Positions 1-14,109 of a stretch of 14,109 nucleotides of DNA are shown in pieces; within the stretch, counting starts at the first letter, position 1, and each line of letters starts with the position of its first letter. The notes below the pieces were generated by a model, which was given only the letters and a program-made list of their open reading frames with translations, was not told the origin of the DNA and made no database searches. The translations under genes and the position numbers were made by a program. Source of the DNA: Flavobacteriales bacterium (lineage in GTDB: Bacteria; Bacteroidota; Bacteroidia; Flavobacteriales; BACL11); assembly GCA_002730985.1 (NCBI GenBank), contig PCBP01000084.1:1-14109 (forward strand), read 5' to 3'.

Positions 1-1
1 A

Positions 2-127
2 GAAAAAAATAAAAATTGGGAGCTTTTAGAGAAGGAAGCTATGTCTTCAATTGTCGACCAGAGAAGTCTAGAAGATAAAGATTCTAAAACATTTAAGGAA
101 TATCTTGGGCACTACTCCTCAAGTTAA
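2..127 (+). CDS. C-terminal fragment of an unidentified upstream gene (5' end outside window)
   Basis: An open frame enters from the left edge and stops at TAA 125-127, giving 41 residues that end in ...LGHYSSS. The composition is ordinary for a soluble protein: charged, with a final stretch rich in Asp, Lys and Ser followed by aromatic residues. It reads as the helical tail of a real protein rather than random sequence. The pattern D-x-K-T-F-x-x-Y-L near the end is faintly reminiscent of the tail of proteobacterial glutamate-cysteine ligase, but that is only an impression. The 229-bp gap after it suggests it is not part of the polysaccharide operon. Function unknown from this fragment. Confidence 0.5.
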   Translation, partial: EKNKNWELLEKEAMSSIVDQRSLEDKDSKTFKEYLGHYSSS

Positions 128-236
128 CCTCTCTTTGAGACTTTTAATTAAATTAAGAGAACTTTCTATCCTTTCTTTTATAAGTCTCTTGCCCATTAGG
201 AAACCTTTTTGATGATTAATCGATTCTACATAACAT

Positions 237-266
237 TTGATTGTAAGATTATGTAACTAATATATA
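237..266 (+). promoter_or_regulatory. weak candidate promoter for the SLBB export gene
   Basis: TTGATT (237-242) and TATATA (261-266) are separated by 18 bp and lie about 90 bp upstream of the SLBB gene start at 357. Each hexamer matches the sigma70 consensus at 4 of 6 positions. In such AT-rich DNA this could be chance. TAAAAT at 298-303 is another possible -10 but has no good -35 partner. The rest of the 128-356 gap shows no RNA gene, convincing terminator or ops-like element. Confidence 0.25.
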
Positions 267-356
267 GTTTGAGACTATGATTAAACGAATAAAACTGTAA
301 AATACTTTGATTTTATTACGAAAAATAGAAAACAGGTTCAGAAAACTAAGCAACAT

Positions 357-3212
357 ATGAAAACTATAATAATATTACTATTACTAATCACAACCCCATC
401 TTCATTCGCACAGATGGATGATTCATCATTGCTTCAAAGCTTAACAGGCGGTATGCAAACAACAAAAGCTCAGTCAGATAAAGAAGATGAAACCTCAGAA
501 GATAAAGCAAACCCAGAAACAGAAGAAAAGGCAGAGATTAATTTTGAAGATCCAAGCTATGGATATACAGGAGGCAAAAGTTTTAAAGTACCTCCACAAT
601 CTAAATTTTCAACTAAACCTCTCGCATACTTTGGATATGACTTTTTCATTGATGCACCAACAACATTTGCACAAGTAAAGAACACTCCTGTTCCTCCTGA
701 TTATGTTTTAGGCCCCAATGATAGGATCAAAGTTGTTTTATACGGCAGTTTTGAAACTTACACAGATGAGAGAATTTCCAGAGATGGAGATATTTTCATC
801 CCAGAAATTGGACCAGTAATGGCAGCTGGATTAACCTTTAGACAATTCAAAGAAAGCTTGAATACAATAATTGAGAATCAATTAATAGGTACGCAAGCAA
901 ATATAACCCTAGGCTCACTCAGATCTATAGACATATTTGTTCTTGGAGAGGCACTACAACCTGGTATGTATAATATCAGTGCGCTTTCAACTTTAGTGAA
1001 TGCGGTTATTAAAAGCGGAGGAATAGCTCCAACAGGCTCATTGAGAAACATACAGTTGAAACGAAATGGGAAAGTTGTTTCTAACTTTGATTTTTATGAC
1101 TTGCTTTTAAAGGGCGACACAAGCAATGATGAAAGACTTATGCAGGGGGATGTAGTCTTTATCCCACCAATAACTAAAACTGTAGGCATATCAGGACAAA
1201 TTGCCAGACCAGGTATATATGAATTAAATGATGATGAGACCCTAAAGGATCTCATAAATTTTGCAGGAAGTTTAAAGCCTAAAGCTGATTTGCTTTCAGT
1301 TGATCTTCAAAGAATAGAGCCACTAAATGACGGATATAACTTAATGCAAATTAATTTAAACAACGACCTTAAATTGAAGAATGGAGATGTTCTATCAATA
1401 CATCCAGTAGCAGATAATTTGAAAAATGCCATTCTAGTGAGCGGTCATGCTAAACAACCAGGTTTCGCCGCCTTGATAGATGGAATGAGAATTGGTGAGT
1501 TATTATCTTCACAAGATGATTTGCTAGCTATGACGGATTTAAATTATGTTTTAGTCAAGCGTGAAGACAAGCAAACTAATGATATTCAATTTCTTCAAGT
1601 TGACTTAGAAGATGTTTTTCAGGATAAGCAGTCCGAATCTAATATCTTATTGTCTGAAAAAGATGAAATACTCTTACTACCAAGCCTTTTAACGCCTGAC
1701 GTAATTACCACAAGGCTGATTGAAGACGATTACACTACGAACGAAAAAGGTGAGATTGTAATGGTAAATGAATGGAATTCATCAACATATTTAAGGAAGT
1801 CATTAATGCAAGAAGCGGTTAGTCTTGAAGAAACTAATTTAAATGTAGAGAGTGAATTTAGTGGTAGGTATAAGACCCAACCTACTGAGATTCAAGGAAA
1901 AGAGGGATCAATAATGAGGTACTACGAGTATTCAATTTATGATTACTGTTCGCTTCCAGAAGATATAGCTATTAGTACCATTGAATCATCTGGCTTTAGG
2001 GCCAAAAAATCAGTTCCACTAGAAGACCTGGGTGATATTAAGACTCCAAAAGATGTGCTTGATCTTCAGCAGGAAATTGAAAATGAAAGAGCGGCTAAAT
2101 CAAATTCTTCTATTGCTGTTGACATTACTCTTTTCTGCAGAGAGCAGCTACTGAAGCCATTTGTAGAAATTATTCAACGTCAAATAGATGAAGACGGAGA
2201 GGAGGATGTTATATCAGTATATGGAAATGTTCATTTTCCAGGTGATTACCCGCTTACTAGTAATATGGATTTAGCCGATGCTATAAAAGCAGCAGGAGGG
2301 CAGAAAAATTCAACATATTCTTCAGAAATAGAGTTAAGTAGAAGTGATGTAACAGGCAAAAAGATATCTGTATATAACTCTGTAGCTTCTTATTCAGATA
2401 CAAATTCCATGACCATGAAATTAAAGGAACGAGACATAGTTAATCTTAAGGAAATATCTAATGATATTAAGACAGTTGAAATTACTGGAGAGGTATTTTT
2501 TAAAGGCACTTACCCAATTTCTGAAAACCAGACAATCAATGAACTAATAATCAGGGCAGGTGGCTTAACAGAATACGCATCAGTTGATGCAGCAAGATTT
2601 ATAAGGAAATCATTGCAAGAATCTGAAATGCAAAGACTAGAAAATGCTAGATCTGAACTCAAAAGGAAAATAGTGCTTTCTAGTCAGGCAGCTGGATTAG
2701 GAGAAAATCCTTTAAGTGGAGGAGCAATAAATCAACTAACCACACTTCTGACTGAAGATACTCCTCAAGATGAAGCTTTAGGAAGACTTGTTATTGACCT
2801 TGATGCCATTATGGGTGGTTCTGATCTAGATATTATTTTAGAAGATGGAGACAAGTTACATATACCTAAGGTCCAACAAACTATTTCAGTAATAGGAGAA
2901 GTATACGTACCAAATACTCACGTTTTTAAATCAAATCTTGGGATTAGTGATTATATAAATTTAAGTGGAGGGGCTAATGAATTTGCTGACAGTAATACTA
3001 TTTATATAGTGAAATCTGACGGCAGCATTTTATCCCCTGATCAATTATCAAACAGTGGCTTTTTTAGGGCTAGTTCAAGTATTCTAGAAAACGGTGATAC
3101 GATTGTTGTGCCTCTAACTGTCAAGCCATTCTCTGCGATAAGAGCGACCACTGAAGTGACTCAAATTATTTATCAGATGGCATTAGCAGCAGCTGCAGTT
3201 AATAGTTTTTAA
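357..3212 (+). CDS. large SLBB-domain polysaccharide export protein (Wza-like, non-lipoprotein)
   Basis: Periplasmic or outer-membrane polysaccharide exporter of the Poly_export/SLBB class, 951 aa. A Sec signal peptide (residues 1-18) ends in S-F-A before Gln, with no lipobox Cys, unlike classical Wza. An acidic low-complexity linker spans about 35-65. The Poly_export domain lies at about 112-190 (VPPDYVLGPND opening). SLBB-type repeats, each opening with a V-x-G-x-x-x-x-P-G/T-x-Y-like motif, begin near 192, 275, 358, 618, 706 and 842. A non-repeat insert (about 445-610) carries the only two Cys, C531 and C594. The protein ends in a hydrophobic helix (about 930-949, rich in Ala) and NSF, possibly comparable to Wza's C-terminal pore helix. 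At 951 aa it is far longer than Wza (about 380). The start is chosen because the signal peptide begins there, although no Shine-Dalgarno site is visible. It opens the polysaccharide locus, 79 bp before the RfaH-like gene. Confidence 0.88.
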   Translation: MKTIIILLLLITTPSSFAQMDDSSLLQSLTGGMQTTKAQSDKEDETSEDKANPETEEKAEINFEDPSYGYTGGKSFKVPPQSKFSTKPLAYFGYDFFIDAPTTFAQVKNTPVPPDYVLGPNDRIKVVLYGSFETYTDERISRDGDIFIPEIGPVMAAGLTFRQFKESLNTIIENQLIGTQANITLGSLRSIDIFVLGEALQPGMYNISALSTLVNAVIKSGGIAPTGSLRNIQLKRNGKVVSNFDFYDLLLKGDTSNDERLMQGDVVFIPPITKTVGISGQIARPGIYELNDDETLKDLINFAGSLKPKADLLSVDLQRIEPLNDGYNLMQINLNNDLKLKNGDVLSIHPVADNLKNAILVSGHAKQPGFAALIDGMRIGELLSSQDDLLAMTDLNYVLVKREDKQTNDIQFLQVDLEDVFQDKQSESNILLSEKDEILLLPSLLTPDVITTRLIEDDYTTNEKGEIVMVNEWNSSTYLRKSLMQEAVSLEETNLNVESEFSGRYKTQPTEIQGKEGSIMRYYEYSIYDYCSLPEDIAISTIESSGFRAKKSVPLEDLGDIKTPKDVLDLQQEIENERAAKSNSSIAVDITLFCREQLLKPFVEIIQRQIDEDGEEDVISVYGNVHFPGDYPLTSNMDLADAIKAAGGQKNSTYSSEIELSRSDVTGKKISVYNSVASYSDTNSMTMKLKERDIVNLKEISNDIKTVEITGEVFFKGTYPISENQTINELIIRAGGLTEYASVDAARFIRKSLQESEMQRLENARSELKRKIVLSSQAAGLGENPLSGGAINQLTTLLTEDTPQDEALGRLVIDLDAIMGGSDLDIILEDGDKLHIPKVQQTISVIGEVYVPNTHVFKSNLGISDYINLSGGANEFADSNTIYIVKSDGSILSPDQLSNSGFFRASSSILENGDTIVVPLTVKPFSAIRATTEVTQIIYQMALAAAAVNSF

Positions 3213-3291
3213 GGTGCTCTTACACAAAGGTATATAACTTCTTATTGATTTCCTAGATTATTCGCACAATGATCCTTTAGCCAAAACTAGC

Positions 3292-3828
3292 ATGAAAAAA
3301 GAAGACCTCATCTGGACCATAATATATACAAAAGCTAAACAAGAATTAAGAGCAAAGAGAAATCTTGAGAATCAAGGTTTTGAAGTATTTCTTCCTATTA
3401 TTTCTATAGAAAAGCTTGCTGATAAATCAAGAAAAGAAAAGTTAGAGGTAATGTTCCCTAGGTATATCTTCATCAGATTAAATCAGGCTGAAGACTGGAC
3501 AAGTATTCGCTCAACAATGGGAGTTAGCACTATAATTTTTTTTGGTCAAAAGATTGCACAAGTACCTAATCAACTCATTAGCTATTTAAAGTCAAAAACA
3601 GATCAAGCAGGTGTCTTTAAACAGAAGAGAATTGAACGTGATTTCAAGAGAGGAGAAAGAATAAAAATTAAGAAAGGCGCTTTTCAAGGAATGGAAGCCA
3701 TATTCTTATCTAAAAGCAGTAAAGACCGAGTTAGATTATTGTTAAAATTTACAAATCAACTTACTGCAGCTCAACTGCCAGCCTCTGATGTTGGTAGGAA
3801 AGAAATTATCGAACCTTTTAGAATGTAA
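3292..3828 (+). CDS. rfaH: RfaH-like transcription antiterminator (specialised NusG paralogue)
   Basis: 178-aa NusG-family factor (E. coli RfaH is 162 aa). An N-terminal NGN domain (about 5-100) opens with W8-x-x-x-Y-x-K and contains FPRYIFIRL (55-63), equivalent to FPNYLFVEF in RfaH. It is followed by a GVS...FG...VP segment very like RfaH. After a basic linker comes a KOW-type C-terminal domain (about 118-165) with KKGAFQGMEAIF, close to the EGAFEGFQAIF stretch of RfaH. Family members bind the non-template ops DNA in a paused polymerase, suppress pausing and Rho termination, and recruit ribosomes. An ops-like element lies 114 bp downstream of its stop, so the gene probably acts in cis on the operon that follows. 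E. coli rfaH is not linked to its targets. No Shine-Dalgarno site is visible. LoaP- or UpxY-type NusG paralogues are alternatives, but sequence similarity favours RfaH. Confidence 0.87.
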   Translation: MKKEDLIWTIIYTKAKQELRAKRNLENQGFEVFLPIISIEKLADKSRKEKLEVMFPRYIFIRLNQAEDWTSIRSTMGVSTIIFFGQKIAQVPNQLISYLKSKTDQAGVFKQKRIERDFKRGERIKIKKGAFQGMEAIFLSKSSKDRVRLLLKFTNQLTAAQLPASDVGRKEIIEPFRM

Positions 3829-3845
3829 TTTCATAAATATTCTTC

Positions 3846-3881
3846 TTGTTCATACACTGAACATATTGTATATTGGGTGCG
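3846..3881 (+). promoter_or_regulatory. candidate sigma70 promoter of the main polysaccharide operon
   Basis: TTGTTC (3846-3851, 3 of 6 to consensus) and TATATT (3869-3874, 5 of 6) are separated by the ideal 17 bp, predicting a start near 3881. The leader would be about 85 nt and would contain the JUMPstart-like hairpin and ops element in the correct order before the first gene at 3966. The -35 lies inside one inverted repeat and the predicted start inside another, which suggests regulation. Confidence 0.5.
3847..3863. promoter_or_regulatory. inverted repeat overlapping the -35 (candidate operator 1)
   Basis: TGTTCA-tacac-TGAACA is a perfect 6-bp dyad with a 5-bp centre, covering the predicted -35 hexamer. 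A related dyad lies 32-33 bp downstream, about three helical turns away. It may be an operator for a regulator, with the MarR-type protein encoded just downstream the obvious candidate, but nothing in the sequence proves which protein binds. Confidence 0.4.
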
Positions 3882-3894
3882 TTCAAGTATGAAC
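3881..3894. promoter_or_regulatory. inverted repeat at the predicted transcription start (candidate operator 2)
   Basis: GTTCA-agta-TGAAC is a 5-bp dyad with a 4-bp centre. Besides being self-complementary, it is nearly the reverse complement of the whole upstream repeat (3848-3862) with one mismatch and one gap. The two could therefore also pair into one long hairpin with an 18-nt loop in single-stranded DNA. A transcript starting near 3881 would contain only this second arm, which favours a DNA operator over an RNA structure. Confidence 0.4.
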
Positions 3895-3919
3895 AGACTA
3901 CTATATCTTAATAAAAAAT

Positions 3920-3954
3920 GGGTTTTCTATATAAAAAAGCCCTGCGGTAGCCAT
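3920..3954 (+). promoter_or_regulatory. JUMPstart-like hairpin plus ops element (RfaH loading site)
   Basis: TGCGGTAGCCAT (3943-3954) contains GCGGTAGC, an exact match to 8 consecutive bases of the E. coli ops sequence GGCGGTAGCGTG. The flanks differ (first G is T; the T at ops position 11 is A). Directly before it, GGGTTTT (3920-3926) can pair with AAAGCCC (3936-3942) as a 7-bp stem including one G-U pair, around a 9-nt loop. Classical JUMPstart has a short CTGG/CCAG hairpin in the same place, just upstream of GGCGGTAG. Location in an untranslated leader, 11 nt before the first operon gene and downstream of an RfaH-like gene, supports function. Confidence 0.75.
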
Positions 3955-3965
3955 ATATAAATCTT

Positions 3966-4280
3966 ATGACTAAGTCAGACATTGAATATAAAATTCTCAA
4001 GATCATCGAAGATGATCCTAACTTGACACAACGACAAATAGCTAAGTTAGTTGGAGTCAGTTTAGGCAAAACAAACTATCTAGTGCGTTCCTTGATTGAT
4101 AAAGGATGGTTAAAAATAAACAATTTTAGACGATCTGATAATAAACTTGTTTATTTATATCATTTGACTCCCCAAGGCCTTATTAATAAATCAGTTCTTG
4201 CAGAAAGCTTTTTACGAAGGAAGTCAGAAGAGTATAATAGACTGAAGGAAGAGATTGAAATTCTTAAGAAGGAAATATGA
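3966..4280 (+). CDS. MarR-family EPS-associated transcriptional regulator
   Basis: 104-aa winged helix-turn-helix protein matching the small family of MarR-type regulators found in exopolysaccharide loci. The helix-turn-helix occupies about residues 20-48 (TQRQIAKLVGVS then a recognition helix with LGKTNYLVRSL). A wing follows (about 50-66), then the YHLTPQG signature (65-71) and a charged C-terminal coiled coil (about 82-104), probably for dimerisation. It is the first gene after the ops element and overlaps the wzz start by 4 bp (ATGA), so the two are translationally coupled. No Shine-Dalgarno site precedes the start. RfaH-dependent ribosome recruitment would fit. The dyads around the operon promoter are plausible binding sites, implying autoregulation, but this is inference. 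Ligand unknown. Confidence 0.85.
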   Translation: MTKSDIEYKILKIIEDDPNLTQRQIAKLVGVSLGKTNYLVRSLIDKGWLKINNFRRSDNKLVYLYHLTPQGLINKSVLAESFLRRKSEEYNRLKEEIEILKKEI

Positions 4281-5200
4281 CGGATCTAAAAGAAACTAAT
4301 GACCAAGATCAAGATCTTGATTTAAAAGAGATCTTATTAGTCTTGTTTGATTGTAGAAGGTTAATAGTTGCAGTCACCGGAACATTTATTATTGGTACTC
4401 TGATATATGCTATGAGTTTGCCTAACTTGTATCTTTCTGAGAGTTTAGTAGTTGCAATGAATGATAGTGGTGCCAGCAATAGAGCTTCTGCTAGTGTCGG
4501 CAGTCTAGTCAAGATGACCACAGGCATACAGCTCCAATCAGCGGGTAGTATGAGCACTGGAGAGGTTGCTGTAGCAACTGTAAAGTCAAGAGATTTCTTA
4601 AACCATTTAATATCGAACTTTGAATTTGTCTTACCAAATATAATTGCTTTTAGAAAGTTTGATGTAAAGACTCAATCTTCGGTTTTAGATTCAAAAATGT
4701 ATGATGAGAAAACCAAGCAGTGGATATCAGGAAAGCTCACATACCTAGAGGTATACCCTCAATATCGAGGCATGGTAACAGCTGATTATGATATGAGCGC
4801 AGGAGTAATTTATTTAGCTGTTGAACATGAATCTCCTGTTTTTGCATATAATTTTCTTAATCTCATCATACAAGAAATAAATAGTCTTAGGCGGGAGAGA
4901 GATCTAGCAGAGTCTAAAAAAGCTCTTGATTATTTATATAAAGAATCTGGCTCAGGTAATATCAAAGCAATTGAAGATACGCTTAGCTCAATGATTACAT
5001 CTCAATTGAATACTCAAATGATGGCGACAATAAAACCAGACTATTTGATACGTCCTTTTGATAAACCATTTATTCCGCTACAGAAGTCTGGTCCATTTAG
5101 GTCAATAATAATGATCATAGGGACATTATTGGGACTTATATTGTCATCAACTTTTGTAATAGCGCTTTATCTATCTACAGGAAAGAAAATAACTATATAA
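4277..5200 (+). CDS. wzz: Wzz-type polysaccharide chain-length determinant
   Basis: 307-aa inner-membrane polysaccharide co-polymerase that sets chain length in Wzy-dependent assembly. It has the standard layout: a short acidic cytoplasmic N-terminus, TM1 (about 29-48), a large periplasmic domain with helical segments, then the proline-rich entry PFIPLQKSGP (264-273) leading into TM2 (about 276-299) and a short basic tail. No cytoplasmic tyrosine-kinase domain follows, so this is a Wzz (PCP-1-like) rather than a Wzc protein. It is slightly shorter than enterobacterial WzzB (about 325). The start overlaps the preceding gene, and GAAGGAA lies just upstream, one of only two clear Shine-Dalgarno sites in the operon. 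A 79-bp gap to the next gene contains only an AT hairpin (5201-5221) without terminator character. Confidence 0.88.
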   Translation: MTDLKETNDQDQDLDLKEILLVLFDCRRLIVAVTGTFIIGTLIYAMSLPNLYLSESLVVAMNDSGASNRASASVGSLVKMTTGIQLQSAGSMSTGEVAVATVKSRDFLNHLISNFEFVLPNIIAFRKFDVKTQSSVLDSKMYDEKTKQWISGKLTYLEVYPQYRGMVTADYDMSAGVIYLAVEHESPVFAYNFLNLIIQEINSLRRERDLAESKKALDYLYKESGSGNIKAIEDTLSSMITSQLNTQMMATIKPDYLIRPFDKPFIPLQKSGPFRSIIMIIGTLLGLILSSTFVIALYLSTGKKITI

Positions 5201-5279
5201 TCTTTTTCTGACTAAAAAAGAATAGAAAGTAAACTTCCTCATTTTTTACACCAAATAACCATCTTATCAATATATAAAA

Positions 5280-6554
5280 ATGTCTTTGAAAGGTATTAAT
5301 CTTGGAATTGTAGGCCTAGGCTATGTTGGTTTACCATTAGCAGTAGAGTTTGGCTCTAAAATGGAGGTTATTGGCTATGATACTAACAAGGAAAGAATAG
5401 AAGAGCTTGAAATAGGTGAGGATAGAACGCTAGAGGTGTCTTCAGCAGTCCTTAGAGATGCGAGTAGCTTAATTTTCACTAATACATTAGAAGATTTATC
5501 TGAATGTAATTGCTTCATTATCACAGTCCCAACACCTATTGATGAAGAAAATAAGCCAGATTTTAACCCACTGCTTTCTGCAACTAAAGCAATAGGTAGC
5601 ATTTTAAAAGTTAATGATCTTGTTATTTATGAGTCAACTGTATACCCGGGTGCTACAGAGGAAATTTGCATACCACTTCTTGAAGAAAATTCAAAACTGA
5701 AATTTAATAAGGATTTTTTTGTAGGTTATAGCCCAGAGAGAATTAATCCCGGAGATAAGGAGCATACCTTAAAAAATATAGTAAAAGTTACTTCAGGATC
5801 TACCCCAGAAACTGCTCAAATAGTAGATGATTTATATGGCAGTATCATAGATGCAGGAACTTATAGAGCCACTTCAATTAAAGTGGCAGAGGCAGCCAAG
5901 GTTATAGAAAATACTCAGCGAGATATCAATATTAGTTTAATCAATGAGTTGGCTCAAATTTTTCATAAACTTGATATAGATACTGAAGAAGTGCTATTAG
6001 CAGCAGGAACAAAATGGAACTTTCTTCCATTTAGGCCAGGATTAGTTGGAGGTCACTGCATAGGTGTCGACCCATATTATCTAACTTTCAAAGCAAAGGA
6101 AGTTGGTTATGACCCAGAGATTATTTTAGCAGGTAGAAAACTTAATGATTCAATGGCTGATTATGTTGGAGATCATTTAATTAGCGAAATGAGACAAAAC
6201 GAAATAGAGGTGGAAGGCTCTAATATTCTGATTATGGGGCTGACTTTTAAAGAGAATTGCCCTGATTTAAGGAATACAAAAGTAGTTGATCTGGTAACTA
6301 AGCTCAGAAATGAAAAGGCTAATGTAGATTGTTATGATCCATGGGTTGATGTTACTGAAGCAGAACAAGAGTATAGAATTAAATGTATATCTAATCCTGA
6401 AATTGATAAATATGATGCTATTGTCCTAACAGTAGCCCATACAGTTTTTAAAGAAATGGGAGTTTCTAAAATTAGAAGCTTTGGTAAGAAAAAAAGCCTT
6501 ATTTATGATCTAAAATACATATTTCCATCTGAATTCATAGATCTAAGGCTGTAG
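5280..6554 (+). CDS. tviB: UDP-N-acetylhexosamine 6-dehydrogenase (TviB/WbpO family)
   Basis: 424-aa NAD-dependent nucleotide-sugar dehydrogenase that oxidises C6 of UDP-GlcNAc or UDP-GalNAc to the uronic acid in two steps. The N-terminal Rossmann motif [10 protein letters not shown] lies at 12-21, followed by VPTP and [23 protein letters not shown] spans 149-159, [18 protein letters not shown] is the central helix, and the catalytic Cys is C260 in [12 protein letters not shown]. The C-terminal domain ends in [16 protein letters not shown], closely resembling Salmonella Typhi TviB. All catalytic motifs appear intact. It is followed after 18 nt by the matching 4-epimerase, as in the tviB-tviC and wbpO-wbpP pairs. 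Together they would give UDP-GalNAcA. The choice between GlcNAc and GalNAc substrate cannot be made from sequence. No Shine-Dalgarno site is visible. Confidence 0.9.
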
Positions 6555-6572
6555 ATCTTAAAATATAAACGT

Positions 6573-7592
6573 ATGGATAAATACACACATCTACAAAAAA
6601 AATTAAAGAGCGAACAAGGTAAGTGGCTTGTTACTGGGGTGGCTGGTTTTATAGGAAGCAATCTTTTAGAAACGCTTCTCAAGCTTGAGCAAAATGTAAT
6701 TGGTTTAGACAATTTTTCTACTGGACATAAAAAGAATCTTGAACTAATCAGAGCTAATATTAACGAAGAAAATTGGAAAAGGTTTGAATTTATAGAAGGC
6801 GATATATCTGACTTTAATACTTGTCTTCAAGTTACTAGAAATGTTGATTATGTTCTTCACCAAGCTGCTATAGGTTCCGTTCCAAGATCTATTGAGGATC
6901 CACTAACAACAAATAGGGCAAATATAGATGGGTTCATAAATATGTTACTTGCAGCAAAAGAATCCGAAGTTAAAAGTTTCGTCTACGCAGCTAGCAGCTC
7001 AACATATGGAGATCATCCAGCTCTTCCCAAGAAAGAAGAGAATATTGGCACTCCTTTATCGCCTTATGCAGTAACTAAATATGTTAATGAGCTATATGCA
7101 AATGTTTTTGATATTTCTTATGGATTCAAAACTATTGGACTAAGATATTTTAATGTTTTTGGGAAAAGACAAGATCCGAATGGAGCTTATGCAGCAGTTA
7201 TACCAAGATGGATATCTGCCATGATAAAAAAAGATAAAGTCTTCATTAATGGTGACGGCGAAACAAGTAGAGATTTTTGTTTTATAGATAATGTCGTACA
7301 GGCTAACTTACTAGCTGCAAACGCTAGTGATTTTAAAAAACATGAAGTGTTTAATATTGCTGTGGGAGATAGAACCTCATTGAATCAACTATTCTCAGTA
7401 ATCAAAAATACTCTTTCAGACCATGGAATATTATATTCTCATGATCCGATTTATAGGGATTTTCGCCCTGGGGATGTTAGGCACTCTCAAGCAGCTATAA
7501 ATAAGGCAAAAAAACTATTAGGTTACCAACCTGACTTTATTCTCTCAGAGGGCATTTCCAAAGCTATGCCTTGGTATCTTCAGAATCAATAA
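6573..7592 (+). CDS. tviC: UDP-N-acetylglucosamine(uronate) 4-epimerase (TviC/WbpP family)
   Basis: 339-aa extended short-chain dehydrogenase/epimerase, very similar along its length to P. aeruginosa WbpP and to TviC. The NAD-binding motif TGVAGFIG is at 21-28. Catalytic residues are visible: the Ser/Thr cluster SSST (141-144) and Y165-x-x-x-K169 in [20 protein letters not shown] and [18 protein letters not shown] are family hallmarks. S305 in DVRHSQA is at the place where WbpP has a small residue thought to admit N-acetylated sugars, where E. coli GalE has Tyr. The protein therefore probably interconverts UDP-GlcNAc/UDP-GalNAc or their uronic acids. It pairs with the dehydrogenase 18 nt upstream. 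No anomalies were seen. Confidence 0.92.
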
Positions 7593-7610
7593 AATCTAAA
7601 ATCAATTTGT

Positions 7611-9416
7611 ATGTTTTTAAATATTAGAGAGCTTTATTCACTCTTAACCAGAGACCAGCGTAATAAGCTATTTAGACTGCAATTTTTAGTCATTATTATG
7701 TCTATAGCAGAAGTCTCTAGCGTATTATCAATAGGTCCTTTTATGACTTTAATTGGGGATGTGAGCCAATTAGAAGGTAACGGTTTCTTGGCAGAGTGGT
7801 ATAAAAATATGGGCTTTACAAATACCACTGATTTCCTATTCTTCATTGCTTGTTGTGTATTAGTAGTTCTTATAATTGCTACTGTTATCTCGATGTATAC
7901 TATTTGGAGACTATCGATGTATGCCGCACAGATTGGTGCTGACTTGAGTTCTAGATTATATAGATATTACATGAGCCAACCTTGGTTATTTCATGCTGCG
8001 GGTAATAGCAATCAATTAACTAACAAGATAGCCCAGGAATGTGAAAGGGTGACATCAGGTATTATCACTCCATTAATGCAAATGAATGCAAAATTATTTA
8101 TGGCAATAATTATGTGTTTAGCCATATTCATTTATAGTCCTATTGTTGCGATTATCGGAGCTTCTACTTTTTATATTACATACTTCTTTCTTTACAGAAC
8201 AGTTAGAGAACGTCTGTCCAATAATGGAGAGGCAATAACAGAAGAGCAAGCCATAAGATTCAAATTAATGGGGGAAGGCTTTGGAGGAATAAAGGATTTA
8301 TTAATTTTAGGTCGCCAGGCCTCTTTTAATAATAGATTTCTTGAGGCTAGCAAAGGATTTGCTTTTGCTAAAGGAAGAACCCAAGTTCTCGGGCAAGTTC
8401 CAAGATATGCTGTTGAGCTGATGGCATTTGGAGCAGTGATTTCTTTAATAATGTACTTATTAATTAAGCTTGAGGGTAACCTTGGTGCTATCCTACCAGT
8501 TCTTTCTATTTTCGTTTTAGCAGGATTTAAATTACTTCCTGCTTTCCAGCAAATATATTTTAGCCTTTCTCAAATTAGGGGAAATTTATCAGGCTTGAAA
8601 AGCATTAGGAATGATCTTTTAGCTAGTATCAATCAAATCAGCTTAAACTCTAAAGATAGAATCATCCATGACGAACACTTTTTTTCAAAAGGCTCTATAG
8701 AGCTACAAAACATTACTTTCAAATATCCTGAAACAAAAAAGCCAGCAGTTTTTGGATTAAACATAGAAATTCCCCACAATAAGATTATAGGGTTAGTTGG
8801 CTCTTCAGGTTCAGGGAAATCTACTGCTGTTGATATTTTACTAGGATTAATAACACCAGATAAAGGGAAGGTTTTAATTGATGGCAAGAGTTTATCGCAA
8901 AAGAATTTACGTTTATGGCAGGATAGCTTAGGTTTTGTTTCTCAAGTCATTTTTTTAGCTGATGCTAGCATAAGAGAGAATATTGCTTTTGGCATAAACC
9001 CAGAAAATATTGATGATAAAAGAATTAAAGATGCTTTGAAGTTGTCACATCTAGATGAGTTTGTTTCTGACTTACCTAATGGGATCGACACAAGGGTTGG
9101 GGAGAGAGGTGTACAGCTTTCTGGCGGACAAAGACAAAGAGTTGGTATTGCAAGAGCACTATATAATAATGCTGATGTTTTAATTTTTGACGAAGCAACC
9201 AGTGCTTTAGATAGTATTACTGAAAAACATATTATGGATGCAATTCATGATTTTTCAGGAAGAAAAACTATTGTTATGATTGCTCACAGAATAACTACAG
9301 TTGAACAGTGCGATATTATTTATTTAATTGAAGATGGAGAAGTTGCAGATCAAGGAAACTATATTGATCTATCATCTAGGAATAAAACCTTTAGAAAAAT
9401 GGCAAAAAAATTATAA
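7611..9416 (+). CDS. ABC exporter/flippase, PglK/MsbA-type half-transporter
   Basis: 601-aa half-transporter with a fused ATPase. The N-terminal part (about 1-330) has several hydrophobic segments consistent with a six-helix type IV exporter domain. The C-terminal ATPase (about 355-601) is complete: Walker A G397-SSGSGKST (397-405), Q-loop Q445, signature LSGGQRQ (503-509), Walker B VLIFDE (523-528) and switch His H559. The N-terminal region resembles PglK-like proteins, which flip undecaprenyl-linked oligosaccharides. In a locus with Wzz but no Wzx so far, a role as lipid-linked glycan flippase is plausible. MsbA-like lipid A export is the alternative. It lies 18 nt after the epimerase and 30 nt before the kinase. 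Confidence 0.82.
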   Translation: MFLNIRELYSLLTRDQRNKLFRLQFLVIIMSIAEVSSVLSIGPFMTLIGDVSQLEGNGFLAEWYKNMGFTNTTDFLFFIACCVLVVLIIATVISMYTIWRLSMYAAQIGADLSSRLYRYYMSQPWLFHAAGNSNQLTNKIAQECERVTSGIITPLMQMNAKLFMAIIMCLAIFIYSPIVAIIGASTFYITYFFLYRTVRERLSNNGEAITEEQAIRFKLMGEGFGGIKDLLILGRQASFNNRFLEASKGFAFAKGRTQVLGQVPRYAVELMAFGAVISLIMYLLIKLEGNLGAILPVLSIFVLAGFKLLPAFQQIYFSLSQIRGNLSGLKSIRNDLLASINQISLNSKDRIIHDEHFFSKGSIELQNITFKYPETKKPAVFGLNIEIPHNKIIGLVGSSGSGKSTAVDILLGLITPDKGKVLIDGKSLSQKNLRLWQDSLGFVSQVIFLADASIRENIAFGINPENIDDKRIKDALKLSHLDEFVSDLPNGIDTRVGERGVQLSGGQRQRVGIARALYNNADVLIFDEATSALDSITEKHIMDAIHDFSGRKTIVMIAHRITTVEQCDIIYLIEDGEVADQGNYIDLSSRNKTFRKMAKKL

Positions 9417-9446
9417 ATATTCACATGAATTTTATATGGGTCAATT

Positions 9447-10817
9447 ATGAACACAGATAAATTTTTAGTTTCTCAGGATGCTACATTGAGAAGTGCTCTC
9501 TCACTTATCGAGAATAATAATCATGGAATAATTCTTACTTTTGATTCTTCAAATAAAGTGACTGGACTGGTAACAGATGGAGACATTAGACGTTATTTAT
9601 TAAAGGAAGATACATCTCTTGATGATCCAATAAGTCTCTGTTCCAATAAAGATTTCTTGTGGGAAGATCCTTCTACATCTAGAGAATTACTTTTAAAAAA
9701 GCTTGATCATAGGATTAGAGTTTTACCGTTACTAGATAAGAATAGAAAACTAATTAATATTGTAAGTAGAGATTATTTGCCAATTCAACAAGAACAAGCT
9801 GTTTTTGCGAGAGCAAAATCACCAGTTAGAATAAGTTTTGGAGGGGGCGGATCTGATCTAACACACTATTTTTCTGCTGATATAGGTGCAGTTATAAATA
9901 CAACTGTTTCAATCTATAGCCACGCTACATTGAGGATTAGACAGGATGAAAAAATTGTTATTAATTCATTAGATTTAAAGAAAAGTCTTACAGCCAAGAA
10001 TCTAAAAGATGCTATCAAGCCACAGGAAAAGTTTGGTCTAATTCAAGCTTTGCTTAAAACAATAAGTCCAGATTTTGGTTTTGAACTGGATGTAAACTCT
10101 GACTTTCCTATAGGATCTGGGCTTGGAGGTTCAGCAGTTGTAGCTGCTGCTATATTGGGGTGCTTTAATCAATTTAGACAAGACAGATGGGATCATCATG
10201 AGCTAGCTGAACTCGCATATCAAGCTGAAAGACTTTACCACGGTATTGAGGGCGGTTGGCAAGATCAATATGCAACAGTTTTTGGGGGCTTTAATTTTAT
10301 GGAATTCAAAATGGATCAGAATGTTGTCCATCCTTTAAGAATTCATGACGATATCTTACTAGAACTAGAGGAAAGTTTGATACTTTGTAATACAGGTATT
10401 TCTCATAACTCTGGTTCAATACATAAGAATCAGAGGCATGAGATGAAACAGAAAGAAATTAAAAAGCATGTTCAGGCAAATGTAGCATTATGCTTTGAGA
10501 TGCGAAATCAATTGTTGAGAGGGGAGTTATTGCGTTTTGGCAATTCGCTTAATAAAGCATGGAATAATAAAAAGAAACTTAGTAGTGAAATTTCGAATAA
10601 TGATTTGGATTTAATATATGAAAATGCTCTAAAACATGGTGCTATAGGCGGAAAGCTACTTGGAGCAGGTGGAGGTGGTTTCTATATATTTTATACCCCT
10701 CCTTCATCAAAACATGAACTTATAGAGTTTCTAAATGAATCTCAATTAGAGATAAGGCCATTCAGATTTGAGAAAGAAGGCCTTAGGTCATGGACAGTCA
10801 GGGAATCTAAGAACTAA
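9447..10817 (+). CDS. hddA: CBS-domain / GHMP sugar kinase fusion (HddA-like)
   Basis: 456 aa. Residues about 7-113 form a tandem CBS pair with TDGDIRR (43-49). This is the kind of nucleotide-sensing module found ahead of sugar nucleotidyltransferases such as PtmE. Residues about 122-456 form a GHMP kinase resembling D-glycero-D-manno-heptose 7-phosphate kinase (HddA). The substrate/phosphate motif SPVRISFGGGGSDL lies at 125-138, the ATP loop PIGSGLGGSA at 221-230 and the likely catalytic Asp at D273 in WQDQYATVFGG. The C-terminal motif LLGAGGGGF spans 404-412. HddA is usually about 340 aa, so the CBS part is a true N-terminal addition. Preceding DNA encodes no alternative start that would remove it. 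The GmhA-like gene two genes downstream supports a heptose-type substrate, but other sugars phosphorylated at C1 are possible. The CBS pair suggests allosteric control by a nucleotide. Confidence 0.82.
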   Translation: MNTDKFLVSQDATLRSALSLIENNNHGIILTFDSSNKVTGLVTDGDIRRYLLKEDTSLDDPISLCSNKDFLWEDPSTSRELLLKKLDHRIRVLPLLDKNRKLINIVSRDYLPIQQEQAVFARAKSPVRISFGGGGSDLTHYFSADIGAVINTTVSIYSHATLRIRQDEKIVINSLDLKKSLTAKNLKDAIKPQEKFGLIQALLKTISPDFGFELDVNSDFPIGSGLGGSAVVAAAILGCFNQFRQDRWDHHELAELAYQAERLYHGIEGGWQDQYATVFGGFNFMEFKMDQNVVHPLRIHDDILLELEESLILCNTGISHNSGSIHKNQRHEMKQKEIKKHVQANVALCFEMRNQLLRGELLRFGNSLNKAWNNKKKLSSEISNNDLDLIYENALKHGAIGGKLLGAGGGGFYIFYTPPSSKHELIEFLNESQLEIRPFRFEKEGLRSWTVRESKN

Positions 10818-10823
10818 CTAAAA

Positions 10824-12722
10824 ATGAAAGATACTATCAAAATTGGTGATCATATTATTGGATCAGAGAGGGCGTTCGTTATTGCTGAGATCGGTAATAA
10901 TCACAATGGCTCATTTGATAGAGCAATCCAAATGATTGATCAGGCAGTAGAAATGCAAGCAGATTGTGTAAAGTTTCAAATGAGACATTTAGATCAACTA
11001 TATCGAAAAAAATCTATAAAAAAATCAGGAGAAGACTTAGGCACAGAATATGTACTGGATCTATTAAGGAAGTTTGAGCTAACAGTCGGTGAGCAAGAAA
11101 AATTATCAGATTATTGCAAAGAAAAGGGAATATTATATTTATGCACCCCATGGGATATTAAAAGTGCCAAGATTTTAGAGACATTTAATGTACCTGCATA
11201 TAAGGTTGCCTCAGCAGATTTAACCAACATACCGCTATTGGAATTTTTAGTAAAAACTAAGAAGCCATTGATTCTATCAACAGGAATGAGTACTAGCGAA
11301 GAAGTTGTATATACAGCAGATATTCTTTCTCAGAAAGGCGCTGAATTTGTTTTATTACATTGCAATAGCACTTATCCAGCTCCACTCCATGATATTAATT
11401 TAAATTGGATGCATGAATTAAGAAAAATACATCCCCTAGTTGGATATTCTGGCCATGAAAGAGGAACAAATGTTACATTGGCAGCATCTACACTCGGCGC
11501 ATGCATCATTGAAAGGCATTTCACTTTAGATAGAAATATGGAAGGACCAGACCATGCAGCAAGCTTAACTTCTAATGAGTTTCAGCTAATGATTTCTGGA
11601 ATAAGAGAAATAGAGGAGAGTAAGGGAAGTGGTGGAATAAGAGAATTATCTCAAGGTGAAATGATTAATAGGGAAAACTTAGGGAAAAGCTTAGTTGCCT
11701 CAAGAAATCTTAAGAAGGGTGATATTTTAAATGAGAATGATATCAAAGTGCTTAGCCCTGGACAGGGATTGTCACCACAAAAATATAATGATTTATTAGG
11801 TCGGACCTTAAATCATAATATGGATGAAGAAGATTTTTTCTATCCCTCCGATCTTTCTGACCATTTAATAGAGCCAAGGGCCTATGAATTTGATAGACCT
11901 TGGGGTGTCCCAGTCCGGTACCATGATTTTAATGAATACAATAAAAAAATTAAACCTGATGTTTGGGAATTTCACTTATCTTACTCTGATATGGAGCTGA
12001 ATTTATCAGATTATTTCAAGGAAGATTTTGAAGCAGATTTTGTTGTTCATGCACCAGAGTTATTTTCTGGAAGCCATTTAATGGATTTAGCGACTCCTGA
12101 TAAATCTTATAGAGAGATATCCTTGAGAGAAACACAGAAAGTTATAGATATTACAAGAAAACTGAAGAAATATTTTCCTCAAACAAAAAGGCCAATGATA
12201 GTTGCTAACATTGGAGGATTCACTATGGACTCAATCTTACCAGAAAAAATCATATCTAGTTATTATCAGCAATTCTCAGAAAGCCTAAAGGAATTAGATT
12301 TAGAGGGTGTTGAATTAATTCCACAGACTATGGCTCCTTTCCCTTGGCATTTTGGAGGCCAGAGATATCAAAATATATTTGTGAGAATAGAAGAAATAAT
12401 AGAATGGGCTGAGAAACTTAAACTAAGAATGTGTTTTGATGTTTCTCATACACAGTTAACATGTAATCACTATAAATTGGATTTTTATGACTTTGCTGAG
12501 AAGATAGCTCCCTATACAGCACATCTGCATTTGGGAGATGCCAAAGGTCTCAATGGTGAAGGACTCCAAGTAGGTGAGGGTGAAATTAATTTTGACCGTC
12601 TTGGTTCAATATTAAAGGAGGGCTGTCCTAGTGCTTCATTTATTCCAGAAATATGGCAAGGCCATAAGAACGGAGGAGAGGGTTTTTGGATAGCAATGGA
12701 AAAATTGGAGGGGAAAATTTGA
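10824..12722 (+). CDS. neuB: NeuB-like ulosonic acid synthase fused to a TIM-barrel sugar isomerase/epimerase-like domain
   Basis: 632 aa, about 280 longer than ordinary NeuB. Residues 1-260 are a NeuB barrel that condenses phosphoenolpyruvate with an aldose: AEIGNNHNG (21-29), VKFQ (49-52), YKVAS with K127, STGMS (152-156), HCNSTYPAP from H179, and ERHFTLD plus GPDHAAS (230-247). An antifreeze-like SAF domain spans about 286-347 (LVASRNLKKGDIL then SPGQGLSP). From about 355 a second barrel of the xylose-isomerase/AP-endonuclease-2 superfamily begins, with candidate metal ligands E497, D539/H542 (CFDVSHTQ), H569/D572 (HLHLGDAKG) and E609 (PEIWQGH). The fusion is continuous, without frameshift. 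The second barrel may make or epimerise the aldose acceptor, which is inference. The gene starts 6 nt after the kinase and its stop shares a base with gmhA. Confidence 0.85.
   Translation: MKDTIKIGDHIIGSERAFVIAEIGNNHNGSFDRAIQMIDQAVEMQADCVKFQMRHLDQLYRKKSIKKSGEDLGTEYVLDLLRKFELTVGEQEKLSDYCKEKGILYLCTPWDIKSAKILETFNVPAYKVASADLTNIPLLEFLVKTKKPLILSTGMSTSEEVVYTADILSQKGAEFVLLHCNSTYPAPLHDINLNWMHELRKIHPLVGYSGHERGTNVTLAASTLGACIIERHFTLDRNMEGPDHAASLTSNEFQLMISGIREIEESKGSGGIRELSQGEMINRENLGKSLVASRNLKKGDILNENDIKVLSPGQGLSPQKYNDLLGRTLNHNMDEEDFFYPSDLSDHLIEPRAYEFDRPWGVPVRYHDFNEYNKKIKPDVWEFHLSYSDMELNLSDYFKEDFEADFVVHAPELFSGSHLMDLATPDKSYREISLRETQKVIDITRKLKKYFPQTKRPMIVANIGGFTMDSILPEKIISSYYQQFSESLKELDLEGVELIPQTMAPFPWHFGGQRYQNIFVRIEEIIEWAEKLKLRMCFDVSHTQLTCNHYKLDFYDFAEKIAPYTAHLHLGDAKGLNGEGLQVGEGEINFDRLGSILKEGCPSASFIPEIWQGHKNGGEGFWIAMEKLEGKI
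12707..12711 (+). promoter_or_regulatory. strong ribosome binding site deciding the gmhA start
   Basis: GGAGG lies 10 nt before the ATG at 12722 and inside the end of the NeuB-like gene. It selects 12722 over an in-frame ATG at 12686, which would add 12 residues not found in GmhA proteins. The TGATG stop/start overlap points to translational coupling. Confidence 0.75.
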
Positions 12723-13303
12723 TGTTTATAGAAAGAATTAAAAAAGATATTGAGGAATCTGCAGCAGTAAAAAACCTTATTCTCAATGATATGCCCACTA
12801 TAGGTTTGATTAATGAAATAGCTGAAGAATGTATCAATACTTTAAATAAAGGCGGCAAAGTTATTTTTTGTGGTAATGGAGGAAGTTTTGCAGATGCTCA
12901 GCATTTATCAGCAGAATTTACAGGAAAATACGCATTTGATCGAGGAGCATTGGCTTCTATTGCCCTAGGAACAAATAGCTCTTCTCTGTCAGCAATAGGA
13001 AATGATTATGGTTATGAGAATGTTTTTTCTAGGGAAATTGAGGCAGTTGCTAAATCAGAGGATATTTTGATTGGAATAACAACAAGTGGTAACAGTAAAA
13101 ATATCCTAAAGGCGGTTGAAGTAGCAAAATCTATGAATATTACGACCTATATCTTTACGGGGAATTCAGGCGGAGAGATACAGTCAAAAGTTAAATGCCT
13201 AAATGTACCATCTGAAATAACAGCTAGAATTCAAGAATGTCATATTATGATCGGTCAAATTATTTGTGGAATAGTAGAAGCAGAACTTTTCAAAGAAAGT
13301 TAA
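12722..13303 (+). CDS. gmhA: GmhA-like SIS-domain phosphosugar isomerase
   Basis: 193 aa from the chosen start, essentially the length of E. coli GmhA (192). GmhA converts sedoheptulose 7-phosphate to D-glycero-D-manno-heptose 7-phosphate in the cytoplasm. The SIS fold is clear: FCGNGGSFADAQHLSAEF (49-66), AIGNDYG (91-97), ITTSGNS (119-125) and TARIQECH (167-174). Of the zinc ligands known in E. coli GmhA (H61, E65, Q172, H180), H61, E65 and Q171 are present. The position eight residues after Q171, where H180 should fall, is Q179 in MIGQI. The enzyme may thus bind metal differently, use another phosphosugar or be a non-catalytic SIS protein. It lies between the NeuB-like and CMP-transferase genes, and the HddA-like kinase nearby supports a heptose link. 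Confidence 0.85.
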   Translation: MFIERIKKDIEESAAVKNLILNDMPTIGLINEIAEECINTLNKGGKVIFCGNGGSFADAQHLSAEFTGKYAFDRGALASIALGTNSSSLSAIGNDYGYENVFSREIEAVAKSEDILIGITTSGNSKNILKAVEVAKSMNITTYIFTGNSGGEIQSKVKCLNVPSEITARIQECHIMIGQIICGIVEAELFKES

Positions 13304-13304
13304 T

Positions 13305-14033
13305 ATGAAAAATATTATTGCCGTTATTCCAGCTAGGTCGGGCTCAAAGGGTGTTCGCGATAAAAATATTAAAGAGATTCTGGGGAGACCATTAATAGCT
13401 TACTCTATTAAAGCTGCGAAGCAGTCAAAATTAATAGATAGGGTCATTGTTTCAACTAATTCTAGAATGTATGCGGATAAAGCTATTAGTTTTGGTGCAG
13501 AAGCTCCTTTTCTAAGGCCTGAAGAAATCTCTCAAGATGACTCAACAGATATTGAGTTTTTCCAACACCTAATTTCTTGGATGAAAGAAAATGAAGAATA
13601 TATTCCTGATTATTTTGTTCATTTAAGACCAACAACACCATTAAGAGATCCAAAAATTATAGATGATGCAATATCTAGGTTTATTGATAGTAACTTTACA
13701 TCACTTAGATCAGTTCATAAGATGAGTGAATCTGCATATAAGGCCTTTGAGATTGAAGATATGGTTTTACATAGAATTTTCAATAAGGGGACTGACCTAG
13801 ATGAGAGTAATTATGCTAGACAGTCCTATCCAAACACTTACGATGCAAATGGATATGTTGATATTGTTCGGTCTAAGTTAATTATTGAGAGGAATCTACT
13901 TCATGGCGACAACGTTCTTCCATATATCACAGAGTCTTCGAGCGAAATAGATGAAAAAGGCGATATTGAAAAAGTTCAATACATGTTAGAGAAAAATATT
14001 AACAATATAAATGAGTTATTTAAAAATGAATGA
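13305..14033 (+). CDS. neuA: NeuA-like CMP-ulosonic acid cytidylyltransferase
   Basis: 242-aa cytidylyltransferase of the CMP-sialate/CMP-legionaminate/CMP-Kdn type, which activates an ulosonic acid with CTP before glycosyl transfer. The nucleotide-binding motif VIPARSGSKG lies at 7-16 and DKNI at 19-22. HLRPTTPLRDP (106-116) and ARQSYPNTYDANGYVDI (171-187, with R172-Q173 and N182-G183) form the sugar site. EID plus D220 (214-220) correspond to the metal-binding acidic motif near the C-terminus. Length is normal for the family (about 230). It starts 1 nt after the GmhA-like stop, with only a weak purine-rich stretch before it, and overlaps the next gene by 8 nt. The specific sugar cannot be told from sequence. 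Its presence shows that the NeuB-like product is destined for CMP activation. Confidence 0.88.
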   Translation: MKNIIAVIPARSGSKGVRDKNIKEILGRPLIAYSIKAAKQSKLIDRVIVSTNSRMYADKAISFGAEAPFLRPEEISQDDSTDIEFFQHLISWMKENEEYIPDYFVHLRPTTPLRDPKIIDDAISRFIDSNFTSLRSVHKMSESAYKAFEIEDMVLHRIFNKGTDLDESNYARQSYPNTYDANGYVDIVRSKLIIERNLLHGDNVLPYITESSSEIDEKGDIEKVQYMLEKNINNINELFKNE

Positions 14034-14109
14034 TTATTCATGCTTGAAAGGGAAAACCGCATTTATAACCGGCGCAACTGGAGCGATTGGAGGAGAAATA
14101 GCTCAATCA
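14026..14109 (+). CDS. short-chain dehydrogenase/reductase, N-terminal fragment (cut by window edge)
   Basis: An open frame starts at ATG 14026, inside the end of the NeuA-like gene, and runs to the edge (28 codons). Its N-terminus has a beta strand followed by TGATGAIGG (residues 15-23), the TGxxxGxG dinucleotide-binding motif of SDR oxidoreductases, preceded by LKGKTAFI, the usual SDR opening. The 8-nt overlap implies translational coupling with the CMP-transferase. SDR genes often neighbour neuA/neuB-type genes (PtmA next to PtmB in Campylobacter). That comparison suggests a redox step in making the ulosonic acid precursor, but substrate and length are unknown. Confidence 0.75.
   Translation, partial: MNDYSCLKGKTAFITGATGAIGGEIAQS

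Follow-up and report, generated by a model that had tools for sequence, protein, structure and literature searches.

Does this polysaccharide locus of a Flavobacteriales bacterium encode, beside its own target operon, the RfaH that would serve it? We analysed the window, i.e. one entire contig of 14.1 kb (C20, positions 1-14109) of a 67.9% complete bin, in which all genes lie on the same strand in the order SLBB, RfaH-type, MarR_EPS, Wzz-type and seven further polysaccharide genes up to the end (Table 1), with an intergenic leader of 137 nt between the rfaH-type and MarR_EPS genes. We think it likely that the locus is a cis-linked RfaH/ops antitermination cassette, and our best reading adds to such a cassette a MarR operator, itself predicted, and a hairpin like that of JUMPstart. 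An initial annotation of this DNA had named neither this RNA hairpin nor the probable operator, and had not recognised the downstream gene as MarR-type. An independent near copy of the window (L049) lies on a 61 kb contig, with 84-97% identity over the eight proteins compared. Positions 10824-12722 encode a 632 aa NeuB-type synthase with a SAF domain, onto which a C-terminal xylose-isomerase-like TIM barrel is fused.

Table 1 Position of genes and leader elements in the window
Feature	Position	Strand	Basis or remark
SLBB export gene	357-3212	+	
rfaH-type gene, 178 aa NGN-KOW protein	3292-3828	+	TIGR01955, 139.6 bits; PF02357
Inferred weak promoter TTGTTC-N17-TATATT	3846-3874	+	8/12 consensus bases
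Dyad 1, GTTCA-N5-TGAAC	3848-3862		predicted MarR_EPS operator over inferred -35
Dyad 2, GTTCA-N4-TGAAC	3881-3894		predicted MarR_EPS operator near inferred transcription start
RNA hairpin GGGUUUU/AAAAGCCC	3920-3942	+	predicted; ends 1 nt 5' of ops core
GCGGTAGC, ops positions 2-9	3944-3951	+ (non-template strand)	exact match, in intergenic leader
MarR_EPS regulator gene, 104 aa, ATG start	3966-4280	+	TIGR04176, 141.6 bits (cut-off 88)
Wzz-type chain-length gene, second in putative target operon	4277-5200	+	PF02706; 4 nt overlap with MarR_EPS
Remaining putative target operon: TviB-, TviC-, PglK-like, CBS-GHMP kinase, NeuB-TIM barrel, GmhA-like, cytidylyltransferase	5280-14033	+	

The RfaH-type protein and the ops-like site

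The presence of an RfaH-like gene, as first annotated, was borne out by profile and structure comparisons. The TIGR01955 score lies under the curated cut-off of 144.5 and was the highest of six families compared; a second RfaH model gave 118.1 bits (cut-off 124) and NusG 45.8, and the nearest solved structures were E. coli RfaH chains (1.7e-16). The protein resembles UpxY (of Bacteroides capsule loci), LoaP and TaA in being a specialised NusG paralogue, but differs from UpxY and LoaP in scoring below both cut-offs (85.2 vs 100 and 39.4 vs 125 bits, respectively). To our knowledge, ops is not the described signal of UpxY, LoaP or TaA. A housekeeping NusG was not found in the 67.9% complete bin.

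In E. coli RfaH numbering, the window protein keeps K10, Q13, R16, Q24, E48, F51, Y54, F56, T72, F81, I93, L96, F130 and R138, which include both RNA polymerase contact residues (F56 and Y54) and all of the autoinhibition residues (E48, I93, F130 and R138), while positions 65-67 read D65-W66-T67. The residues I-F-G, described as the Rho contact of NusG in the KOW loop (PMC7593976), are lost at positions 145-147, which read F145-T146-N147 in the window and L-I-N in E. coli RfaH. Four side chains have been described as touching ops in E. coli RfaH, K10, H20, R23 and R73 (PMC5995543), and only the first is kept in the window, with N, N and M at positions 20, 23 and 73; among the residues whose change caused strong pausing defects in E. 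coli RfaH (T72, K10, H20, R73 and R16; PMC2871177), three of five are kept. The initial annotation had staked its reading on the ops-contacting residues, and this expectation failed for all but K10, yet RfaHs with perfect ops vary likewise. The contact positions also differ in such RfaHs from other genomes in the residue alignment; its trans rows are not independent, since some of them are duplicates of linked genes (L140, L143-L145, L147 and L149-L156). N20 is also usual among RfaHs scoring over the cut-off, and the RfaH of L124, a locus with a perfect ops core and TG, carries K10, N20, Q23 and M73. Since the contact residues of both the window and L124 differ from those of E. coli, this branch cannot depend on the complete E. 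coli set for recognition.

The annotated ops core stood in its eight bases, all exact, and not beyond them: ops positions 10-12 are CAT in the window vs GTG in E. coli, hence ops is matched only in part, and the gap between the site and the ATG is 14 nt rather than the 11 nt first given. The pause dinucleotide at ops 11-12 is thus AT, instead of the TG common to E. coli targets. Among 38 sites (window included), TG was found in 32, TT in two and AT in four, the last being the window, L049 and the SAR86 loci L053 and L064. A G12C change in E. coli ops is described as leaving recruitment intact (PMC5995543).

GCGGTAGC occurs nine times in the 1.374 Mb assembly (reversed control, once), and the leader copy is the only one of the nine outside ORFs of at least 80 aa on either strand; further ops sites in the same assembly were rejected, as the other eight copies lie within ORFs. 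At the assembly rate, the roughly 130 positions of the leader, read on one strand, would contain 0.0004 copies by chance. Tolerating one mismatch gave two matches over the entire window vs a mean of 1.82 in shuffles, which does not exceed chance, so that the case rests on exactness of the match, position and conservation. Three relatives (G450, G454 and G464) carry 13, 11 and 9 copies genome-wide, vs 15, 10 and 11 for the reversed control. Thirty of these 33 copies were readable and 27 of the 30 lie within ORFs; two of the three others are MarR_EPS sites and the third is L203 in G454. By genome, one of nine copies is intergenic in G464 and two of 11 in G454, one of them at MarR_EPS, while 10 of the 12 other copies were read in G450, none of them intergenic. 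In the window lineage, GCGGTAGC is therefore nearly private to its neighbour locus.

Conservation of the site and its link with RfaH genes

Out of 173 MarR_EPS relatives that were confirmed and came from named genomes, the best 80 served to assess conservation. GCGGTAGC was present within 300 nt upstream of MarR_EPS in 37 of the 80 loci, where 0.45 were expected from its rate in the rest of the same loci, and within 150 nt in 34 (0.25 expected). It was the most frequent 8-mer of the 150-nt MarR_EPS leaders of these loci; among the 839 other orders of its letters, three that overlap the ops-type sequence reached 8-12 leaders, the next reached three, and the mean was 0.19. A chance ops match beside an unrelated NusG-type gene could appeal to the nine copies in the assembly and to the counts in the three relatives, which resemble their reversed controls. 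We rejected it, as next to impossible, on the assembly rate, the minute expectation for the leader and this strong conservation across leaders.

Consistently with a role of RfaH at the site, site and gene occurred together. Fragments aside, TIGR01955 scores in the comparison genomes fell into two groups, at least 76 bits (hereafter RfaH-class) and at most 61 bits; in the lower group, NusG I-F-G was found at positions 145-147 in 20 of the 21 genes read, all from genomes with site-free loci. An RfaH-class gene was present in 34/36 site-bearing vs 9/42 site-free genomes (Fisher, 1.8e-11) and, with one row per 70% identity cluster, in 14/16 vs 4/18 (p = 1.8e-4); the co-conservation that the initial annotation had proposed to look for in homologous loci was thus found. 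No RfaH was found in two of the 36 site-bearing genomes (loci L061 and L079). Among the nine RfaH-positive exceptions, L073, L115 and L121 have an exact site downstream of MarR or rfaH (its distance from rfaH being about 100 nt in L115), a one-base variant precedes GTG in L076 and L120, and L078, L084, L099 and L106 have no site in the locus DNA scanned. One-base variants were also seen in L068 and L104, whose genomes show no RfaH; as they occur in RfaH-positive and RfaH-negative genomes alike, the variants alone prove little. On the best MarR tree, 11 changes of the site were needed, but supported branches of this poorly resolved tree of 109 columns force only one, and an independent-pairs test on it yielded one pair. 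The RfaH link is therefore not secured against shared descent and the result is weaker once descent is counted.

Physical linkage of rfaH was common, not the rule. Of the 37 site-bearing loci, 16 have an rfaH immediately upstream, on the same strand and no further than 2.2 kb away (L049, L050, L052, L053, L054, L056, L057, L058, L060, L064, L072, L074, L101, L105, L124 and L127). In L051, L063, L088 and L123 it lies 6-15 kb upstream on the same strand, on a contig of equal size, and in 15 it is elsewhere or unplaced (L126, whose RfaH is on a contig of different size, counted as unlinked). Mobility of the cassette with the polysaccharide locus, as first suggested, fits the sparse occurrence of both genes among relatives, although transfer is not proven: MarR_EPS was over cut-off in none of 59 other relatives and in one other of 395 class genomes, and an RfaH match above 80 bits was found in one of 36 other family or genus members. 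In relatives, 15 loci of RfaH- or NusG-type matches (L017-L031) had no GCGGTAGC within the stretch of up to 3.5 kb scanned in each. In uropathogenic E. coli, RfaH was described as binding only eight leader copies among 42 ops sites (PMC9765446), a restriction that fits the leader site of the window. Thiocapsa marina has three RfaH-class genes and two MarR_EPS loci (L070 and L075), whose sites lie 120 and 191 nt upstream. In L096, L098 and L128, bins named Bacteroidia or Verrucomicrobia have Rhodocyclaceae-like MarR_EPS leaders, owing to binning error or transfer.

This adjacency invites another account, in which the linked RfaH-type protein is always active, with a beta-barrel KOW domain and free of autoinhibition, and acts in cis by proximity, the ops-like site being a leftover or no more than a pause. 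A 2026 preprint ties rfaH adjacency to always-active RfaHs and describes 'monomorphic' RfaHs as mostly adjoining long operons (PMC13015549); the loss of TG at ops 11-12 in the window, the differing ops-contact residues and the replacement of E48 or F130 in the linked relatives L050, L052, L053, L054, L057 and L064 point the same way. However, with its autoinhibition residues kept, the window protein seems to be an adjacent RfaH that has stayed dependent on ops. GCGGTAGC is moreover the same in the window and in the two SAR86 loci, whose RfaHs are 40-45% identical to that of the window and which match the window in the placement of the site and of the two dyads, with different hairpin letters. 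Finally, in the 19 of 80 loci where an RfaH-class gene adjoins MarR_EPS, the exact site was found in the leader of 16, the exceptions being L115, with its site behind rfaH, and L076 and L120, with their one-base variant. We regard constant activity as distinctly unlikely, and favour an ops-dependent RfaH.

Operator dyads, hairpin and translation start

The match of the gene behind the leader to the MarR_EPS family was full-length. A search for GTTCA-TGAAC with gaps of 3-6 nt found the dyad in 72 of 81 MarR_EPS leaders, always with a gap of 4 or 5, vs 12 copies in the remaining 787 kb. As it was equally present in leaders with GCGGTAGC (34/38) and without it (38/43), the dyad is a feature of MarR_EPS and not of RfaH, and GTTCA-N4/5-TGAAC probably serves as operator of MarR_EPS. 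In the 1.374 Mb assembly, a single copy of the N5 form was counted (reversed control, two). In site-free loci the dyad lies mostly 20-50 nt before residue 1, and in site-bearing loci mostly 75-160 nt upstream, with the leader between. Two dyads spaced by 33 nt, the first of them over an inferred -35, and a site 14 nt before residue 1 are common to the window, L049, L053 and L064, and the last three loci have a promoter layout comparable to that of the window, whose inferred promoter was not listed by a consensus scan requiring at least 9/12 bases.

A predicted RNA hairpin precedes the ops core. Across the 38 leaders, stems ending at -2/-1 had a mean best score of 15.2, vs 9.75 in 100 shuffles (sd 0.49, highest 10.9), and reached at least 16 in 18 leaders (shuffles, mean 2.3 and maximum 8), while stems ending 6-30 nt upstream did so in at most two of 38 at any position. 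The harder control, 39 GCGGTAGC copies outside leaders, had a mean of 11.5, with 8/39 reaching 16 vs 18/38 (p = 0.017). The stem letters vary by lineage and the register is nearly constant in many leaders; L089, L105 and L127 have no good stem before the site. The E. coli JUMPstart hairpin is likewise predicted to end directly 5' of GCGGTAGC, Rfam's stem being 2 nt shorter. The distance from the stem to the position equivalent to U11 is 11 nt in the window, which we take to be the spacing of the his pause. The E. coli ops pause, at U11, has been set apart from pauses that a hairpin stabilises (PMC11001881).

Membership in JUMPstart by the Rfam model was rejected: RF01707 matched neither the window leader nor 13 site-bearing loci (L049, L050, L051, L055, L059, L060, L066, L074, L083, L088, L092, L112 and L126), while the E. 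coli control matched with 61.1 bits. A conserved stem-loop in JUMPstart has been published (PMC2864571), and by prediction the window has the same succession of a stem-loop directly followed by ops. A scan of the leader by Rfam E-value gave only a snoRNA match, a chance hit that was discarded.

The MarR_EPS gene has no clear Shine-Dalgarno site, as the initial annotation had claimed: the best pairing of the 16S tail at its ATG is -2.8 kcal/mol, through bases of GCGGTAGC, a value only just above the limit of -3. None of the 27 site-bearing ATG starts paired at -3 kcal/mol or better, the window and L049 being the tightest. Starts could be assigned in 37/38 site-bearing and 40/43 other loci, the remainder being dropped (L077 had no start by the first assignment rule). 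Seven of the 37 site-bearing starts paired at -3 or better, all of them GTG or TTG and six through the site's own bases, compared with 40% of 224 control genes from site-bearing loci and 55% of the 40 site-free MarR genes; over all site-bearing starts, the weak pairing was significant against both (p = 0.0016 and p = 0.017, respectively). In L105 and L127 the likely start codon, GTG or TTG, is overlapped by the ops-like site, whose GGCGG may double as ribosome site.

These starts bear on the view that GCGGTAGC serves another role, such as translation start or MarR_EPS binding, and that the RfaH link reflects common descent. Pairing through the site in six of seven starts, its overlap with the start in two loci and the single change forced by supported tree branches agree with this view. 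Yet site and start are anywhere between 14 and 59 nt apart in the 16 loci with ATG at residue 1, the element common to site-bearing and site-free MarR_EPS leaders is the dyad and not GCGGTAGC, and the bases of the site are identical to the ops core; we hold such a role to be very improbable, and retain loading of RfaH as the probable function.

Proposed regulation and relation to known systems

What we observed comprises the genes, the conserved site and its association with RfaH, together with dyads, hairpin and poor Shine-Dalgarno pairing; for binding and regulation, every step is extrapolated from E. coli RfaH and from the general behaviour of MarR proteins. Departure of MarR_EPS from the two dyads would let RNA polymerase start at the inferred promoter. 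Once a leader of about 60 nt has been made, the hairpin would fold and the polymerase slow at GCGGTAGC, where the neighbouring RfaH-type protein may dock on the exposed non-template strand and remain on the polymerase. There it would exclude NusG and Rho, and would aid ribosome start at an ATG lacking a clear Shine-Dalgarno site as well as passage along the whole operon of 10 kb. The first product of the operon, MarR_EPS, probably represses its own promoter. Counting against a cassette of this kind are the replacement of three of the four ops contacts, AT at ops 11-12, the possibility of shared descent, the two of 36 site-bearing genomes without RfaH, the one-base variants in RfaH-negative genomes, the hairpins at copies outside leaders, the near-limit pairing at the window's ATG and the origin of the window from one contig of an incomplete bin. 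A more far-reaching version, possible though on the whole doubtful, is a portable two-lock unit, in which the MarR_EPS dyad would gate initiation and a linked or unlinked RfaH would gate elongation and translation through hairpin and ops; the lineage of the window and SAR86 would have lost the TG pause, with the abutting hairpin taking over pausing and RfaH loading becoming dependent on RNA structure.

The proposed cassette has much in common with the E. coli RfaH/ops system (JUMPstart, RF01707): an NGN-KOW protein with E48-R138, F56 and Y54, a polysaccharide leader whose non-template strand carries GCGGTAGC directly behind a predicted hairpin, and little or no Shine-Dalgarno pairing. It differs in that rfaH is linked in the window and unlinked in E. 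coli, in the replacement of H20, R23 and R73 and of TG by AT at ops 11-12, in a hairpin of different sequence that RF01707 misses, and in the predicted MarR operator upstream. That RfaH genes are linked to polysaccharide loci is already published: Wang et al. 2020 (PMC7593976) described such RfaHs, one cluster of them, CL4, beside an HTH regulator. The window resembles CL4 in its RfaH-type gene beside polysaccharide genes and an HTH regulator; unlike the window, CL4 is described in that section with neither an ops site nor an operator or mode of recruitment. In the same article, E. coli RfaH was called the sole RfaH whose recruitment mode is known in detail. Our search of the open-licence literature by titles and abstracts, with subscription journals mostly outside its scope, found no MarR_EPS operator and nothing on MarR_EPS together with RfaH or ops. 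As in the MarR_EPS family (TIGR04176) at large, the regulator of the window is a full-length match over cut-off in a polysaccharide neighbourhood, the dyad operator being a prediction from the present analysis.

For the linked RfaHs of marine gammaproteobacteria and of some betaproteobacteria, these data point to a concrete candidate site of loading, and they tie the MarR_EPS family to a specific predicted operator. They extend the E. coli RfaH system and add to it a probable on/off repressor at the same spot. Moreover, the natural variants in contact residues, TG step and hairpin may help to trace the evolution of ops recognition by RfaH and to decide whether linked RfaHs remain dependent on ops.
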